From Candidatus Rokuibacteriota bacterium (GTDB taxonomy: Bacteria; Methylomirabilota; Methylomirabilia; Rokubacteriales; CSP1-6), in contig VGLJ01000021.1 of NCBI GenBank assembly GCA_016866775.1, positions 1-64,000 of the forward strand: a DNA stretch of 64,000 nucleotides, read 5' to 3'. Made by a program: the position numbers and the translations under genes. Positions 27,287 to 57,666 of this stretch are shown in pieces. The notes under the pieces are model-generated. The model did not search any database. It was not told where the DNA came from and saw only the letters and a program-made list of their open reading frames with translations. Position 1 is the stretch's first letter, and each line of letters starts with the position of its first letter.

Positions 27287-28332
27287 CCGACGATCTCCCA
27301 CTTCGCCTGGTAGCGGTCGAGCTGCTCGATCGTGTGCGCGTCGAGCGGATGGTCGCGCTCGGGGATCTCGACGTGCTTCGCCTCGCCGCAGAGCGGGGTG
27401 GTGAAGTACCGCTGGCCGGTGTCGTTGATCGGCGTGACGATCGTGCGGAGGTCGGGATGCCGGCGCGCGAGCTTCAGCGCCGCGGCGACGTTGCAGCCGC
27501 TGGAGATCCCGCAGAAGATGCCTTCCTCGCGCGCGAGCCGCCGCGCCACGTCGACGCTCTCCTCCGTGGTGGTCGTGATGATGCCGGTGAGGATCGAGAC
27601 GTCGAGGTTGCGCGGGACGAACCCGTCGCCGATCCCTTCGATGCCGTGATGGCCCCACGCGCGGCGCGAGAGCAGCGCGCACTCCGCGGGCTCGACGGCG
27701 TAGAGGCGCACGCGCGGATCCTGCCGGCGCAAGTAGCGGCCGACGCCGGTGAGGAGCCCGCCGGAGCCCTGCGAATCGACGAACGCGTCGATCTTGCCTC
27801 CGCTCTGCTCCCAGATCTCCGGCCCCGTCGTGAGCATGTGGGTCTCGACGTTGTCCGGGTTGTCGAACTGCCCGGGCACCCAGTATTGATCCGGTGCCGC
27901 GGCACGAATCCGCTCGAGCTTCTGCAGCGACAGGTCGACGTCGCTCTCACCGCCCGGCGTGAACACCAGCTCGGCGCCGTACGCGCGCATGATCTTCTTG
28001 CGCTCGTCGCTCATGCCTTCCGGCATCACGATCGTGCAGGGGTAGCCCTTCACCGCCGAGACCCACGCGCACGCGATGCCCGCGTTGCCGGTGGAGCATT
28101 CCAGCACGCGCATCCCCGGCTTCAAGTCGCCGCGCTGCTCAGCCCTGGTGAACATGTGGAGATAGATGCGGTCTTTGAGGCTGCCCGTCGCGCCGTACCA
28201 CTCGACCTTCACGTAGATGGCGGGCGTCACGTCGCGCGTGATGCGGTTGAGCTTCACGAGCGGCGTGCGGCCGACGGCGTCGGCGATGGACGGAAGCGCG
28301 GCGGCATAGCGGTTCCACGCGGTGGCGGTCAT
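27283..28332 (-). CDS. PLP-dependent cysteine synthase/cystathionine beta-synthase-like
   Basis: 349 residues from ATG 28332. Beta-family PLP enzyme: PLP Lys in TGSLKDRI, substrate loop STGNAGIACAW, Gly-rich phosphate loop GSGGLLTGVGRYL and SSGCNVAAALKLA. The conserved STSGN motif appears as ECSTGNAGI. O-acetylserine sulfhydrylase is the default guess, but its place at the head of a CoA-transferase/LLM operon suggests a specialised lyase or synthase. It diverges from the ABC ATPase gene. Confidence 0.8.
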   Translation of the reverse strand: MTATAWNRYAAALPSIADAVGRTPLVKLNRITRDVTPAIYVKVEWYGATGSLKDRIYLHMFTRAEQRGDLKPGMRVLECSTGNAGIACAWVSAVKGYPCTIVMPEGMSDERKKIMRAYGAELVFTPGGESDVDLSLQKLERIRAAAPDQYWVPGQFDNPDNVETHMLTTGPEIWEQSGGKIDAFVDSQGSGGLLTGVGRYLRRQDPRVRLYAVEPAECALLSRRAWGHHGIEGIGDGFVPRNLDVSILTGIITTTTEESVDVARRLAREEGIFCGISSGCNVAAALKLARRHPDLRTIVTPINDTGQRYFTTPLCGEAKHVEIPERDHPLDAHTIEQLDRYQAKWEIVG

Positions 28333-28360
28333 GGCCCCCGCATTGTGGCACGATCTCGCG

Positions 28361-29089
28361 GTGATCTCGCTCCAGCGCGTGACCAAGCGGCTCGGCGGGC
28401 AGGTCGTGGTGGACGACGTGTCGCTCCTTATCGCGGCCGGCACCACGCACGTCCTGCTCGGCTCCAGCGGCTCGGGCAAGTCGACGATCCTGCGCCTGAT
28501 CCTCGGGCTCCTTCAGCCGGACGCGGGTGAGGTGAAGGTCGACGCGGACACGGAGCGGCCCTCACGCAGCATCGGCTACGTGGTCCAGGAGGGCGCGCTC
28601 TACCCGCACCTGACGGTCGCGCGGAACGTCGCGCTCGCCGCGCGCGCCGAGGGGTGGGAGGACGCGCGACAGCGCACGCGCCTGCGCGCGCTCGCGGAGC
28701 TGGCCGGTCTCGACGGCGAGCTGCTCGACCGCTATCCCGCCGAGCTCAGCGGCGGCCAGCGGCAGCGTGTCGGCCTCATGCGCGCGCTCATGCTCGATCC
28801 GCCGATCCTCCTGCTCGACGAGCCGCTCGGCGCGCTCGATCCCATCACGCGCGCGGAGCTCCAGACCCAGCTCGTGCGGATCTTCGGCGAGCTCCGCAAG
28901 ACGGTCGTGCTCGTCACGCACGACGTGCGCGAGGCCTTCGTCTTCGGCGCCGGCATCACGCTCCTGAACCACGGTCGCGTCGTCCAGCACGGCACGTTCG
29001 CCGACCTCGCGCGCCGGCCCGCGAGCCCGTTCGTCGCCGAATTCCTCCGGGCGCAGGCGCCGCCGCCCGAGATGACGCGAGAGCTGTGA
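28361..29089 (+). CDS. Osmoprotectant-type ABC ATPase (OpuA/ProV-like)
   Basis: 242 residues from GTG 28361; ATG 28331 is an alternative that would overlap the divergent gene. Walker A GSSGSGKST, Q-loop YVVQEGALYPHL, LSGGQRQR signature, Walker B ILLLDEPLGALD and switch THDVREAF. It lacks the C-terminal CBS pair of full OpuA/ProV. Partner of the fused receptor-permease that follows after 2 bases. Confidence 0.85.
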   Translation: MISLQRVTKRLGGQVVVDDVSLLIAAGTTHVLLGSSGSGKSTILRLILGLLQPDAGEVKVDADTERPSRSIGYVVQEGALYPHLTVARNVALAARAEGWEDARQRTRLRALAELAGLDGELLDRYPAELSGGQRQRVGLMRALMLDPPILLLDEPLGALDPITRAELQTQLVRIFGELRKTVVLVTHDVREAFVFGAGITLLNHGRVVQHGTFADLARRPASPFVAEFLRAQAPPPEMTREL

Positions 29090-29091
29090 GG

Positions 29092-30606
29092 ATGAAGGCG
29101 ACGCTCGTGCTCGTCGCGCTGTGCGCAACGGCTCTCTGGCCGTCCCCGGCCCCGTCCCAGCCGTCCGCGATCCGCGTCGGGTCGAAATCGTTCACCGAGA
29201 GCTACATCCTCGGAGAGATCGTCGCGCAGATCATCGACGGCGCCGGCGAGGCGCGCCCGGAGCGCCGCTTCGGCCTCGGCGGCACCGGCATCGTCTACGG
29301 CGCGATCGCGAGCGGCGACATCGACGTCTACGCGGAATACACCGGCACGATCGCCCAGGCGATCCTGAAGACTCCGGCGGTGACGTCGGTCGAGCCGCTG
29401 CGCGCCGCGCTCGCGCCGCTCGGCCTCACGCTCAGCGGGCCGCTCGGCTTCGAGAACACGTACGCGCTGGCCGTGCGCCGGGACGCGGCGCAACGCCTGC
29501 AGCTGCGCTCGATCAGCGATCTCGCGAAGCATCCGACGCTGCGAGCGGCGTTCGATCCCGGGTTCCTCGAGCGTCCGGACGGCTGGCCGGGCCTGAAGGC
29601 GCACTACGGGCTCGCGTTCGCCGACGTGCGGATCATGGAGCACGCACTGACGTATCCGGCGCTGGCGAACGGCCGCGTCGACGTCATCGACGTGTTCTCG
29701 ACGGACGGCCAGCTCGCGCGCCTCGACCTCGTACTGCTCGACGACGATCGGCGCTTCTTCCCGCCGTACGCGGCGGTGCTGCTCGCGCGCCGCGCTGTGG
29801 CGGAGCGCTTCCCGCGGACGTGGGCGGAGCTTCAAGGACGGCTCGTCGGCCGGATCGACACGGCGACGATGACGCGTCTGAACGCGCTCGCCGACCTCGA
29901 CCGGCGTCCGTTCGCCGACGTGGCGGCGACGTTTCTCGGCGACACCGCCCGCGCACCACGCGCGGCGCGGTCGGGGCGCGAATTGCTGACGCCGGGTCGT
30001 GAACTCGTGACGCTGACGGTCGAGCACCTTGAGCTCGTTGTCATCGCGGTCGCCGTCGCGATGTTGCTCGGCGTTCCGCTGGGCATTCTCGCCGCCCGCC
30101 GTCCGCGGCTCGCGCAGGTCGAGCTCATGGGCGTCGGCGTGCTGCAGACGATTCCCGCGCTGGCGCTGCTCGCGTTCATGATCCCGCTCTTCGGCATCGG
30201 CACGGTGCCGGCGCTCGTCGCGCTCTGCCTCTACGCGCTCTTGCCGATCGTGCGCAACACGCACGCGGGCCTCGCGAGCCTCGATCCGAGGCTGGTCGAG
30301 ATGACGACGGTGCTCGGCCTCACGGGATGGCGGCGGCTGGCGTGGATCGAGCTGCCGCTCGCGTCGGTCACGATCATGGCCGGCATCAAGACGTCCGCGG
30401 TGCTCACCGTCGGAACCGCGACGCTGGCGGCCTTCATCGGCGGTGGCGGCTACGGCACGCTCATCGTGACCGGTCTCGCGCTGAACGACGTCGCCACGAT
30501 CCTGCGAGGCGCGATTCCCTCGGCGGTCCTGGCGCTCGCGATCCACGCCGCGTTCGAGGGGCTCGACCGCCTGGTGATCCCGCGACCTCTTCGAGGGGGG
30601 CCTTGA
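29092..30606 (+). CDS. Fused osmoprotectant-binding protein and permease
   Basis: 504 residues. Signal peptide, then an OpuBC/ProX-like binding domain (~25-290: GSKSFTESYILGEIVAQI, DVYAEYTGTIAQAIL) and a C-terminal permease of about five or six helices (~305-500) with LDPRLVEMTTVLGLTGWRRL as the EAA loop. Imports quaternary amines or similar compatible solutes. Binding domain first, permease second. A 12-base-pair hairpin overlaps its stop. Confidence 0.85.
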   Translation: MKATLVLVALCATALWPSPAPSQPSAIRVGSKSFTESYILGEIVAQIIDGAGEARPERRFGLGGTGIVYGAIASGDIDVYAEYTGTIAQAILKTPAVTSVEPLRAALAPLGLTLSGPLGFENTYALAVRRDAAQRLQLRSISDLAKHPTLRAAFDPGFLERPDGWPGLKAHYGLAFADVRIMEHALTYPALANGRVDVIDVFSTDGQLARLDLVLLDDDRRFFPPYAAVLLARRAVAERFPRTWAELQGRLVGRIDTATMTRLNALADLDRRPFADVAATFLGDTARAPRAARSGRELLTPGRELVTLTVEHLELVVIAVAVAMLLGVPLGILAARRPRLAQVELMGVGVLQTIPALALLAFMIPLFGIGTVPALVALCLYALLPIVRNTHAGLASLDPRLVEMTTVLGLTGWRRLAWIELPLASVTIMAGIKTSAVLTVGTATLAAFIGGGGYGTLIVTGLALNDVATILRGAIPSAVLALAIHAAFEGLDRLVIPRPLRGGP

Positions 30607-30619
30607 CGGCCCCCCTCGA
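30591..30619 (+). terminator. 12-bp perfect hairpin over stop codon
   Basis: TCGAGGGGGGCC (30591-30602), loop TTGAC, GGCCCCCCTCGA (30608-30619). The stop TGA is within the loop region. No U-run follows, so it would act as a factor-dependent terminator or mRNA 3'-end stabiliser. Confidence 0.55.
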
Positions 30620-30620
30620 G

Positions 30621-30667
30621 ACTCCCCCCAGGATCGACTGCGGCGGCAAAGCCGCCGCTCGGAACGT
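30621..30667 (+). repeat. Intergenic 3'-end repeat element, copy A
   Basis: ACTCCCCCCAGGAT, then a perfect GCGGCGGC-AAA-GCCGCCGC hairpin (30640-30658), then TCGGAACG. A closely matching element in the same sense relative to its gene follows ispH (56727-56768). Confidence 0.6.
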
Positions 30668-30678
30668 GATGACCCTCG

Positions 30679-31437
30679 TCAGGTCTCCGTCTCGAGAGCG
30701 GCGCACAGGTCGCGGCAGAGCGCCGTCACCTCGGCGTGATCGGCAGGGAACCACGCGGCCATCCACTCCGCGCGCTCGAAGAACGCCAGAGGAGGGCGGC
30801 CGGCGCGGCGGATCGCGCCGCGGCGGACGAGCCCGCTTGCCTTGATGATGCTCACGTCGGTCAGCATGCGGCCCAGGGCAGCGATGCCCGCCGTGACCGG
30901 AACGAGGGTCGCGACGGCCTCGAGGGACTCGGCGACGGCGCGGAGAGCGAAGACGCGCGTACGCGGGCGCAGCCGCGACGGCAACGCGTCGAGCACCGCG
31001 CGGATCGTGAAGCCGGAGAAGATGGTGTCGTCGACGATCGCGAGCGCGGTGACGCCGGCGAGAGCACCCAGACGCCCGGACAGCGTGTCCGCGCCCTGGA
31101 GGACGTACTTGCCGTCGTCCTGTTCCTCGCGCCACAGGTCGACGCGCTGGATCGCGGGGAACCAGCCCGTTCGCTCGTGGATCCGCGCGGCGCCGCGCGC
31201 GCCGGCGCCGCCGATGCCCACCGCCACCGCGAACGGCGCGTGACCGCCGCGCGCGATCAGCGCGTCGATCTCCTGCGCCACGGTGCGGAGCACGATGCGG
31301 GACGGCTCCGCGCTCAGGCGCGCGAGCAGCGCGCGTCCGAGACGCGCGGCGGACGAGGCGTTGCCGCACGCGCCGACGATGTCGGAGAGGTCGTCGTGGA
31401 TGTAGAGCGTCCGTGGCGTAGGCGCCGCGAACGTCAC
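30679..31437 (-). CDS. Phosphoribosyltransferase-fold protein
   Basis: 252 residues from GTG 31437, overlapping the egtD stop (GTGA). A PRPP-binding-like motif ALAIVDDTIFSGFTI lies about two-thirds along, preceded by VAVGIGGAGARGA. The ~30-residue N-terminal segment (RTLYIHDDLSDIVG) is unassigned. Type I phosphoribosyltransferases move ribose-5-phosphate to a base; substrate unknown. Translational coupling to egtD suggests a link to ergothioneine or histidine metabolism. Confidence 0.65.
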   Translation of the reverse strand: MTFAAPTPRTLYIHDDLSDIVGACGNASSAARLGRALLARLSAEPSRIVLRTVAQEIDALIARGGHAPFAVAVGIGGAGARGAARIHERTGWFPAIQRVDLWREEQDDGKYVLQGADTLSGRLGALAGVTALAIVDDTIFSGFTIRAVLDALPSRLRPRTRVFALRAVAESLEAVATLVPVTAGIAALGRMLTDVSIIKASGLVRRGAIRRAGRPPLAFFERAEWMAAWFPADHAEVTALCRDLCAALETET

Positions 31438-32441
31438 GAGGCCGGGCGCGCGAGCGCGAGCCCGAAGCGCTGCGCGTCGTCGGTGTACCACGCCTCCAGC
31501 GTGAGCCCGGCGTCGCGCAGCATCGCCTCGGTGGAGGCCCGCGTGAACTTGTACGAGCTCTCCGTCCAGATGTCGTCGCCCGGCTCGATGTCGAGGACCA
31601 TGTCGACGCCGGGCAGACGCACGCGCTGCGCCGTCTCGGCGACGAGGTGCATCTCGATGCGGCGGGTTGCTTCCTCGTAGCGCGCCACGTGACGGAAGGC
31701 CTCGGGCACGAAGTCCGCGCCGAGCGCGCGGTTGATGACGCGCAGGACGTTGCGATTGAACTCGCGTGTGACGCCCGCCGCGTCGTCGTACGCGGCCTCG
31801 AGGACCGCGCGGTCCTTGACGAGGTCGACGCCGACGAGCAGGGAGCCATTGGCGCCGAGCGTTGCGCGGATGCCCGCGAGCAGCCGGCGGCTTCCCTCGG
31901 GGTCGAAGTTGCCGATGGTGCTGCCGAGGAAGAGCGCGAGACGCCGACCCGCGGGCGGCGGCACGTGGACGAGGTCGGTGGCGAAATCGCCGACGACGGC
32001 GTGGACGTGCAGCCGCGGATAATCGCGCGCGAGCGACGTCACGGCGCGGGCGAGACCGTCGCGCCCGAAGTCGACCGCGACGTATCGCGCCGCCGTTGCG
32101 ATGGCGTCGATCAGCGTGCGGGCCTTGCGGCACGAGCCGGGTCCCAGCTCGACGATGTCGGTGGGCCTCTGGTCGCGCGCGATGGCCCTCGCCACCGCCG
32201 GCAGCAGCGACTCCTCGACGCGCGTCAGGTAGTACTCGGGGAGCTCGGTGATGCGATCGAAGAGCCCGGCGCCCGCGTCGTCGTAGAAGTACTTCGGCGG
32301 CAGCGACCACGGGCGGCGGGCGAAGCCGCGGCGGACGTCCTCGGCCAGCATCGCGAGGAACGCCGCGTCGTCGGTGCGCACCTCGAACCGACAGCGCGCG
32401 GCGACGTCAGCGGGCGACGGTACGGAATCCGGCGAGGACAT
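31434..32441 (-). CDS. egtD: L-histidine N-alpha-methyltransferase
   Basis: 335 residues from ATG 32441, which lies inside the end of egtB. EgtD features: PPKYFYDDAGAGLFDRITEL followed by PEYYLTR, SAM-binding VELGPGSCRKARTLI, FLGSTIGNFDP and the substrate region FNRNVLRVINRALGADF. Trimethylates histidine to hercynine with three SAM. Acts with EgtB encoded immediately upstream. Confidence 0.93.
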   Translation of the reverse strand: MSSPDSVPSPADVAARCRFEVRTDDAAFLAMLAEDVRRGFARRPWSLPPKYFYDDAGAGLFDRITELPEYYLTRVEESLLPAVARAIARDQRPTDIVELGPGSCRKARTLIDAIATAARYVAVDFGRDGLARAVTSLARDYPRLHVHAVVGDFATDLVHVPPPAGRRLALFLGSTIGNFDPEGSRRLLAGIRATLGANGSLLVGVDLVKDRAVLEAAYDDAAGVTREFNRNVLRVINRALGADFVPEAFRHVARYEEATRRIEMHLVAETAQRVRLPGVDMVLDIEPGDDIWTESSYKFTRASTEAMLRDAGLTLEAWYTDDAQRFGLALARPAS

Positions 32442-33714
32442 TGCGCCGCTGACGCTTGTAGAAGTTTCGCCATGTCGCGCGAATGAGGCGCGACCGTGTC
32501 GTCCAGCCGCCGCCACGAAGCACCTTCTTCTCGCCGAAATACGGTGCCGAGTACTCCGCGTACGGATCGCACACGAAGCCGGGATAGGGCTCGAAGGTGT
32601 CCTCGACCCACTCCCACACGTTGCCGATCATCTGCCGGCAGCCGACGGGGCTGTCGCCGCAGGGCAGCGCGCGAACGTCGATCGTGCCGCCCGCACGATA
32701 GTCGAGGCTCGCGCGATCGGGCGCCGGCGCCTCGTCGCCCCACGGGAAGCGCCGCTTCTCGCCCGTCACCGGATCGAGCGTGGCCGCCATCTCCCACTCG
32801 GCTTCGGTCGGCAGACGACGCCCCGCCCAGCGACAGAAGGCTTCCGCCTCGTACCAGTTGACGTGCACGACCGGATGCCACGCCTCGAGCGGCACGAGCG
32901 CGTCGAAGCGGCGCTCGCGCCAGCGTCCGTCACTGTCGCGCGCCCAGAACAGCGGATGCTCCGCGCCGTCACGGCGGCGCCAGTCCCAGCCACGCCGGCT
33001 CCAGCACGGACGGCGTCGATAGCCGCCGTCGTCGACGAACGCCTGGAACTCCGCGTTCGTGACGGGTGTCGACGCGATGCGGAAGGGCTCGACCTCGACG
33101 GGATGCGCCCACTTCTCGTTGTCGAACACGAACGGCTCGTCGCGTGCCGCGCCGACGCAGAACGGACCGCCCGGGACGCCCACGTCGCGCGGCCGGTACG
33201 CGGTGTCGACTTCCGGTGACGCCCACGTGGGATCATAGCGACTCAGCTTCGGACGCTGGTAGCCGTGGGTCTGGAGGATCAGCGTGAGGTTCTCCGCGTG
33301 CATGTCCTCGTGCTGCGCGACCAGCGTGTAGAAGTACGTCTCGGCGGCGGTCGGCTCTCGGCCGTCGAGCCGCGCGACGCTGCGACGGAGCACGTCCGTG
33401 ATGTACGCGAGCGTCGCCTCGCGAGACGGGTACGCGTGATCCCACCGCCGCGTGTACGAGACGTGAAAGGCGTCGTAGATCCCGTCGGAGCCCGGCAGGA
33501 GCGAGCCGGCGCCGTCGAGGTGGCGGAGGATCCAGGACTCCTGGAACCAGCCGACGTGGCCCATCTCCCAGAGCGGGGGCTCGATGAAGTGGCCGCGCGG
33601 CCCGAGCATCTCGGCGTCCGTCAAGCCCGCAAGAAGCTCGAGCTCGACGGCCCGGGCGTCCCGTAGCGTCGCGCTCAAGGTATCGGCCCCGCCGATCGTT
33701 CGCACCTCGACCAT
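32407..33714 (-). CDS. egtB: Hercynine oxygenase (sulfoxide synthase)
   Basis: 435 residues from ATG 33714. N-terminal DinB-like domain with iron ligands HVGWFQESW and H-x3-H in QHEDMHAENL; C-terminal SUMF1-like domain (GRRLPTEAEWEMAA, GNVWEWVEDTF, VLRGGGW). Uses O2 and iron to join hercynine to a thiol donor. A related enzyme, SenA, makes selenoneine; no senB or senC lies nearby, so ergothioneine is preferred. Thiol donor (Cys or gamma-Glu-Cys) not assignable. Confidence 0.9.
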   Translation of the reverse strand: MVEVRTIGGADTLSATLRDARAVELELLAGLTDAEMLGPRGHFIEPPLWEMGHVGWFQESWILRHLDGAGSLLPGSDGIYDAFHVSYTRRWDHAYPSREATLAYITDVLRRSVARLDGREPTAAETYFYTLVAQHEDMHAENLTLILQTHGYQRPKLSRYDPTWASPEVDTAYRPRDVGVPGGPFCVGAARDEPFVFDNEKWAHPVEVEPFRIASTPVTNAEFQAFVDDGGYRRRPCWSRRGWDWRRRDGAEHPLFWARDSDGRWRERRFDALVPLEAWHPVVHVNWYEAEAFCRWAGRRLPTEAEWEMAATLDPVTGEKRRFPWGDEAPAPDRASLDYRAGGTIDVRALPCGDSPVGCRQMIGNVWEWVEDTFEPYPGFVCDPYAEYSAPYFGEKKVLRGGGWTTRSRLIRATWRNFYKRQRRNVLAGFRTVAR

Positions 33715-56726: not shown

Positions 56727-56768
56727 CGTTCGAGCGCCGGCTTTGCCGGCGCAATCCTGGGGGGAGTT
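56727..56768 (-). repeat. Intergenic 3'-end repeat element, copy B
   Basis: On the minus strand: ACTCCCCCCAGGAT, a GCGCCGGC-AAA-GCCGGCGC hairpin (56735-56753), then TCGAACG. It begins at the ispH stop codon, in the same orientation relative to its gene as copy A at 30621-30667. Confidence 0.6.
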
Positions 56769-57666
56769 ATCGAAGCTCTTTCGGGAGGACGAAGCTCACG
56801 TCTTCTTCGACGCCGTCGATCATCACCACGTCTTCGGGATCGAGCGCCTCGATGACGGCTTCGACGAGTTGCTCGGGCGTGGACGCGCCCGACGTGATCC
56901 CGACGTCCGCGACGCCTTCGAACCACCGCGGATCCATCTCCTCGGGGCCGTTGAGCAGGTACGCGGGGACGCCGTGCGACGAGGCGACCTCACGGAGCCG
57001 ATTGCAGTTCGAGCTGTTCGGCGCGCCGATGACCAGGATGAGATCGACGTGCTTCGAGAGCTCCTTCACCGCGGCCTGGCGGTTGGTCGTCGCGTAACAG
57101 AGGTCGTTGCGGACGAGCACGTCGGAGAACTTGCTCTTGATCTGCTGGATCGAGCGCTGGGTGTCGTCGACCGAGAGCGTCGTCTGCGTGAGCACCGTCA
57201 CCGGCGTGTGAGGATCGAGCTCGGGCGCGAGGAACGGCTCGCGGTCGTCGACGAGGTGCATGTCGGTCTGCCCCATCGTCCCTTTGACTTCCTGGTGCCC
57301 GCGGTGGCCGACGAGGATGATCTTGCGGCCCTCGCGGACGTACTTCCGCGCCTCGTTGTGCACCTTGGTGACGAGCGGGCAGGTGGCGTCGATCACGTTG
57401 AGACGCCGCTCGACGGCCTTCACGAAATCTTCCGGCGGCGAGCCGTGGGCGGAGAAGACGACGTGGGCGCCCTCGGGGATCTCCTCGACCTTCTCGACGG
57501 TGATGGCTCCCTTGGCCTCGAGCGATTGGACGACGTGGGGGTTGTGCACGATCTCGTGCTTGACGTAGACCGGCGGCCCGAACTTGCGGAGCGCCAGCTC
57601 CACGACGTCGATCGCGCGCACGACGCCCGCGCAGAACCCCCTGGGAACCCCGAGGTACACCTTCAT
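56767..57666 (-). CDS. ispH: 4-hydroxy-3-methylbut-2-enyl diphosphate reductase
   Basis: 299 residues. Cluster cysteines in [22 protein letters not shown] and [14 protein letters not shown]-type [13 protein letters not shown] and HRGHQEV also fit. Final step of the MEP isoprenoid pathway, making IPP and DMAPP. The ATG abuts the thiolase stop with no gap, so the two are co-transcribed. Confidence 0.95.

Follow-up and report, generated by a model that had tools for sequence, protein, structure and literature searches.

Three tracts of an intergenic DNA repeat covary in parallel register across a bacterial order, as a conserved intramolecular triple helix might

Two copies of a repeat in the window

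The 64,000-nucleotide stretch of Candidatus Rokuibacteriota DNA analyzed here (the window) carries a forward-strand gene in which an OpuAC substrate-binding domain is fused to a BPD_transp_1 permease (29092 to 30606), followed by a convergent gene on the reverse strand (30679 to 31437) for which no Pfam match was found. The fused gene and its ATPase gene adjoin a gene that Pfam marks as an EgtD-like histidine-specific methyltransferase within positions 28322 to 33714, of which the part from 32407 to 33714 looks EgtB-like. The ispH (LytB) gene lies farther along on the reverse strand (56767 to 57666). An initial annotation had reported a shared motif, hairpin, and tail behind the transporter gene and ispH, and both copies were confirmed. 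The 14-mer ACTCCCCCCAGGAT occurs exactly at 30621 to 30634 (forward strand) and 56754 to 56767 (reverse strand), against a chance expectation of 0.19 matches, and the window contains no other match with up to two mismatches allowed. On the 3' side of each 14-mer are a GC hairpin, with an 8-bp stem and the loop AAA, and then TCG(G)AACG.

The annotated part is only the last portion of the element; a first hairpin (HP1) and its relation to the linker that follows it had been overlooked. In the copy behind the transporter gene, with all features on the forward strand, HP1 spans 30591 to 30619 (TCGAGGGGGGCC-TTGAC-GGCCCCCCTCGA, 12 bp) and has counterparts in the family throughout the order, and its loop contains the TGA stop codon of the transporter gene (30604 to 30606). 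Within HP1 is the purine arm of a putative triplex (30593 to 30600, GAGGGGGG), which covaries with the linker across the family. The linker, the putative third strand (30622 to 30629), reads CTCCCCCC, the parallel complement of the purine arm. The last hairpin (HP2) occupies 30640 to 30658 (GCGGCGGC-AAA-GCCGCCGC), with compensatory changes across the family, and the conserved tail TCGGAACG, which is TCGAAC in the family consensus, follows at 30659 to 30666. The convergent gene has its stop codon 12 nt past the tail.

The copy behind ispH, on the reverse strand, is truncated: HP1 is absent there and the copy starts with the linker ACTCCCCCCAGGAT (56754 to 56767), followed by HP2 (56734 to 56752, GCGCCGGC-AAA-GCCGGCGC) and the tail TCGAACG (56727 to 56733). 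The first A of its ACTCCCCCCAGGAT is also the last A of the ispH TAA stop codon. The annotated start at or just after a stop codon thus holds for the ispH copy and not for the transporter copy, in which 14 nt separate the stop codon from ACTCCCCCCAGGAT.

Range and anatomy of the family

Further copies were found genome-wide, as a repeat family would require. The window's own genome (G000, 5.13 Mb) contains seven matches to the 14-mer with at most one mismatch and none to the reversed control, 48 matches to a longer version of the motif with at most three mismatches versus 13 for the control, and 61 matches to a covariance model at an E value of ≤0.001. When the sequence collection was scanned for the linker together with the hairpin, 52 loci were found, 48 of which are titled Candidatus Rokubacteria or Rokuibacteriota. 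The whole element is also present in L049 (titled Chloroflexi) and L075 (titled Acidobacteria), which may be misbinned contigs because they come from the same soil series as Rokubacteria bins, while the Geobacter and Mediterranea loci have no HP1 and look like chance matches. The covariance model, built from 46 copies, matched all 39 genomes of the order, which we take to be Rokubacteriales and which includes the window's own genome, and none of the 21 genomes from elsewhere in the class. Detected copy numbers within the order range from 1 to at least 79 per genome and differ inside genera (25 and 74 in g4, for example). A search confined to the open-license literature, with partial coverage, found no publication on this repeat. 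The family is a real, order-wide, REP-like noncoding DNA repeat.

The family consensus begins with HP1 (CTCGGAGGGGGGC-loop-GCCCCCCTTCCGA), which is separated from the linker CCTCCCCCC by either a connector of 1 to 2 nt or a variable middle hairpin. After the linker come a short variable stretch, HP2 (GCGCCGGC-RAA-GCCGGCGC), and TCGAAC. All eight HP2 pairs are intact in 190 of 205 copies (the parser tolerates one mismatch), and the inner pairs interchange among C-G, G-C, T-A, and A-T. The two stems of the window differ by paired changes, as annotated. In the 46-copy alignment, 94.8% of the cells pair, versus 90.8% after shuffling, and 29 two-sided changes are present, versus 5.9 after shuffling. 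These compensatory pairs support the proposed selection on the stem.

A middle hairpin is present in 18 of the 35 parsed copies of the window's own genome. Terminator-like examples there are those at L153:9856-9940, L158:18131-18210, L164:10861-10946, and L152:7142-7218, and the middle hairpins with an A-run and a T-run look as if the repeat had captured a bidirectional terminator. In genome G012, some copies are compound, with GATCCATAGTCAGAGGGGGCC or a close variant of it and one further hairpin 5' of HP1 (L190:18011, L193:8143, L199:12887 and 17595, L206:10520, and L209:7888).

Placement, gain, and loss

Placement was analyzed with our own gene caller in three genomes, and the other intergenic regions of ≥40 bp served as the comparison. 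The set comprised 100 copies, namely 103 matches minus 5 (cut-off, weak, or overlapping palindromes) plus the two copies of the window. Of the 84 intergenic regions with a copy, 55 were tandem, 29 were convergent, and none was divergent, compared with 274, 31, and 99, respectively, of the 404 other regions (divergent avoidance, P = 9e-10; convergent enrichment, P = 1.5e-9, odds ratio of 6.3). Contact with gene ends is often exact. In the window's own genome, the stop codon directly abuts CTCGG in 15 of 24 copies that meet a stop codon first; in G012 it lies 0 to 4 nt from the copy in 24 of 33; and in G027 an opposite-strand start codon is at most 8 nt away in 12 of 16 copies that meet a start codon first. 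The exceptions were three copies inside predicted ORFs and L179:15031, which is beside a predicted ORF and was classed as start/start; under a stricter overlap rule, 11 of the 100 copies were marked as being inside a predicted ORF. These positions support the annotated placement at gene ends. The element strand shows no preference with respect to replication, agreeing with the local GC skew in 48 cases and disagreeing in 52. In reversed copies of G027 (e.g., L177:13070-13143 and L180:3313-3386), the linker reads GGGGGGAGG, which is Shine-Dalgarno-like, and a folded HP1 would bring it to within a few nucleotides of the start codon.

Comparison of congeners shows that some sites have changed. 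Site A is occupied in G006 only and site B in G027 only, and at site J, compared between G012 and G031, there is an insertion at a CTAG stop with GCTAGCG-like repeats on its flanks. Sites A, B, and J show presence/absence at orthologous positions of the kind known from miniature inverted-repeat transposable elements (MITEs), and other copies, e.g., K, M, and L177:13070, are common to congeners. A multicopy family that is polymorphic between congeners agrees with the nonautonomous repeat that the initial annotation had offered as one of two readings.

The other reading was a 3'-end RNA element, that is, a module that follows stop codons as a bidirectional terminator or mRNA stabilizer and is retained for its role in gene expression. 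The tight spacing to stop codons, the convergent enrichment, and the absence from divergent regions all speak for it, as do 2 of the 18 middle hairpins of the window's own genome, which by regular expression have the A-run, GC stem, and T-run of a true bidirectional terminator. In addition, REPs of E. coli are reported, in the part of the source used here, to lower translation when they lie no more than 15 nt from a stop codon (PMC12306157). However, the copies at tandem sites are oriented almost evenly, with 33 in sense and 30 in antisense, so that the sense orientation annotated for the two window copies, correct for both, is not a general rule. The stems contain almost no G-T mismatch, with 1 G-T, 4 A-C, and 10 other mismatches in HP2 and 0 G-T and 2 A-C in HP1 among the 205 copies; this counts against RNA because an RNA stem should favor G-U, with the qualification that the numbers are small. 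Neither HP1 nor HP2 is followed by a T-run, so the intrinsic-terminator pattern is missing at both. Rfam 15 has no match to the element: at the gathering score it gave none anywhere in the window, and on six loci it found only a tRNA and a TPP riboswitch (the latter in the window's own genome at L164:14567-14676). The scarcity of G-U pairs, the even orientation, and the gain and loss at orthologous sites favor DNA over RNA, and the range of copy numbers within the order also counts against an RNA module, which we consider unlikely.

Parallel covariation of the HP1 arm and the linker

Taken in one and the same 5'-to-3' direction, the bases of the linker CCTCCCCCC complement those of the purine arm GGAGGGGGG of HP1, and on the opposite strand the HP1 arm and linker form a homopurine mirror repeat. 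This parallel register is that of an intramolecular triplex with a pyrimidine third strand and not that of a normal stem. The conserved CCT of the linker is not explained by base pairing in the usual direction.

Copies whose HP1 has A at tract position 6 were sought in 60 genomes with the linker left unconstrained. Twelve were found, in 9 genomes and 7 genera, 11 of them with a linker (L275 has none and was therefore excluded). With A in the arm, none of the 11 linkers had the consensus C; 8 had T, 2 had G, and 1 had A. With G in the arm (n = 74), 66 linkers had C and 2 had T, A occurred in 3 and G in 1, and the tract was unreadable in 2. The association gave a Fisher P value of 1.4e-7, and the variant copies differ from one another in their loops, middle parts, and HP2 arms. 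Other kinds of change follow the same rule. Both copies with a variant at arm position 5 have T at that position of the linker, 3 of 4 copies of the far family f4 (G038) combine a GGGGGGG arm with a CCCCCCC linker, and type A copies, the type found in the window, pair the arm GAGGGGGG with the linker CTCCCCCC. Tract lengths also go together: six G's occur with six C's in 63 copies and with five in 6, and five G's occur with five C's in 29 copies and with six in 9 (Fisher P = 1e-12). Among intact nonconsensus arms, 15 of 23 had a perfect parallel match in the linker, compared with a permuted mean of 4.1 and a maximum of 9 in 2,000 permutations. A two-stem switch, in which the linker would pair antiparallel to the 5' arm of HP1, was rejected, the match being perfect in only 3 of the 23, all poly(G). 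The covariation counts leave out 62 of the 205 copies (those with a mismatched HP1 and loci that had been found via their linker), and their P values are too small, as the copies are related.

Some copies depart from the rule. The arm and linker mismatch in 3 of the 11 position-6 variants and in 8 of the 23 nonconsensus arms, and 4 copies have C at arm position 3 and yet retain T in the linker. In copies with a middle hairpin, about 35 nt lie between strands of the putative triplex. Part of the covariation may stem from a few founder subfamilies. This bears on another explanation, that of an ordinary hairpin repeat without a triplex, in which a protein binds the C-rich linker and the agreement of arm and linker is a founder effect. 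The informative variants are few (the same 23 copies) and nested in genomes, and the linker sequence is strongly conserved. Against it, changes at position 5, position 6, and position 3 of f4, together with tract length and type A, all obey one parallel rule, and the position-6 variants are scattered over genera in copies that are otherwise dissimilar. We regard this explanation, too, as doubtful. The arm-linker rule is well supported as a pattern in the compared sequences, and HP1 and the linker behave as a conserved triplex would, the evidence for the fold being comparative. The odds are even that an intramolecular triple helix has been maintained by natural selection, with three DNA tracts covarying in parallel register across a bacterial order.

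Flanking repeats and the search for a mover

Flanking direct repeats were analyzed for 97 of the 100 copies, those with N's or an unrecognized HP1 being left out. Repeats of at least 8 bp flank 6 of 22 copies in G027 (0.58 expected), and repeats of at least 9 bp flank 5 of 45 in G012 (0.70 expected); the window's own genome shows no excess (at least 8 bp in 1 of 30, 1.15 expected). The copies at L207:19128-19204, L195:12092-12170, and L194:5129-5205 have flanking repeats of 17, 19, and 11 bp, respectively, with 39 to 59 nt of unconserved sequence from HP2 to the right repeat. Direct-repeat lengths this varied do not fit a usual transposon. At stop/start overlaps, direct repeats can span both codons and would then leave both genes whole.

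No autonomous parent, with HP1 and HP2 kilobases apart, was found in 60 stretches (1.14 Mb) sampled from three genomes, and 'orphan' HP1 matches were mostly the same palindrome read on the opposite strand. The varied direct repeats had suggested a retro-type mechanism, which was rejected: RVT_1 does not vary with copy number, and since the high-copy genomes G006, G016, G022, and G037 are without it, it is not required. Movement as a strict REP family by a RAYT/TnpA-REP single-strand transposase is improbable: the repeat shares with REPs, as described in the part of PMC3733652 drawn on here, short and abundant palindromes, a location in tandem and convergent regions, and close stop codon contact, yet Y1 transposase domains (Y1_Tnp) do not track the copies, occurring in 7 of 39 order genomes (including the high-copy genomes G006 and G031) and being absent from the window's own genome and the high-copy genomes G012, G014, G016, G022, G024, G027, G037, and G038, and no GTAG or CGTC tag is conserved beside either hairpin in the 205 copies (the 8 nt preceding HP1 contain GTAG in 4 copies and CGTC in 2; the 10 nt following HP2 contain GTAG in 1, CGTC in 1, and the reverse complement of CGTC in 5).

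Proposed explanation and its meaning

The reading that we prefer, at slightly better than even odds (probability of about 0.52), is that the repeat acts at the level of DNA, that a triplex-hairpin drives its spread, and that copies persist where both neighboring genes stay whole. When the strands part in replication or transcription, one strand would fold back into HP1. The linker (Y2) would then lie in the major groove of HP1, beside its purine arm (P) and pyrimidine arm (Y1). The top strand would form C+.G-C and T.A-T triads and the bottom strand the purine motif with G.G-C and A.A-T triads, the form suited to neutral pH. The resulting triplex-hairpin might spread the repeat either as the substrate of some enzyme or as a fork-stalling structure that becomes duplicated, and copies would survive only at stop codons and stop/start overlaps, where both genes remain intact.

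If this is true, the family would be evidence, drawn from comparison, that intrastrand triplexes arise in bacterial cells and have a role there, and it would be a repeat that spreads through a triplex fold and lands on stop codons. Intrastrand triplex motifs are common in bacterial genomes, and a third strand that tracks its hairpin through several types of change makes the question of triplexes in cells testable with sequence data, and the repeat supplies natural pairs of arm and linker variants for experiments. In addition, the family equips an uncultured order of soil bacteria with mobile markers whose contact with stop codons is unusually exact.

Comparison with known systems

Like intrinsic terminators, the Rokubacterial repeat places GC hairpins just after stop codons, and some copies have a T-run hairpin in the middle; unlike terminators, its HP1 and HP2 have no T-runs and it occurs in either orientation. 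MITEs such as Correia or ERIC are small noncoding repeats that are gained and lost at orthologous sites, some with flanking direct repeats. Compared with these, the Rokubacterial repeat did not clearly show long terminal inverted repeats or a target duplication of fixed length, and the stretches sampled from three genomes yielded no parent transposase for it. With REP, BIME, and REPIN elements, as described in parts of PMC3733652 and PMC12306157, it shares short palindromes, high copy number, a location between tandem and convergent genes, and frequent contact with stop codons, and like them it is probably mobile as DNA. It differs from them in having neither a conserved GTAG/CGTC tag nor a tracking RAYT gene and in adding a parallel third strand.

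The closest known kind is the BoxC/PIT/TM-ECO group of intrastrand triplex repeats, as far as it is presented in the part of PMC4666352 used here. Those repeats, too, are multicopy, intergenic, and variable between related strains, with three consecutive G/C-rich tracts able to form an intrastrand triplex. The criteria given there are a stem of 6 to 15 nt and loops of 1 to 6 nt (PMC4666352); the short forms of the Rokubacterial repeat, with 7 to 9 triplets and short loops, are within them, and in those with a middle hairpin the loop is too long. In the same part of that source, the E. coli motif folds in vitro, its triplex was not seen in duplex DNA or clearly in vivo, and a pyrimidine-strand triplex is said to prefer acid (PMC4666352). 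The sequences differ: the E. coli TM-ECO consensus is 5'-CCCTCNCCC..GGGNGAGGG..GGGNGAGGG (PMC4666352), and that of the Rokubacterial repeat is GGAGGGGGG..CCCCCCTTCC..CCTCCCCCC. The strand order differs as well, being Y-R-R on one strand in E. coli (PMC4666352) and R-R-Y on the bottom strand here. Unlike BoxC/PIT/TM-ECO as described there, the Rokubacterial repeat has a second covarying hairpin and a tail, contact with gene ends, and avoidance of divergent regions, whereas TM-ECO shows no distance trend and is more often upstream of ORFs (PMC4666352). Covariation of three tracts, seen in the Rokubacterial repeat, was not met for the E. coli motif in that part of PMC4666352. The Rokubacterial repeat may work in the same way as BoxC/PIT/TM-ECO, yet by sequence it falls outside that family.
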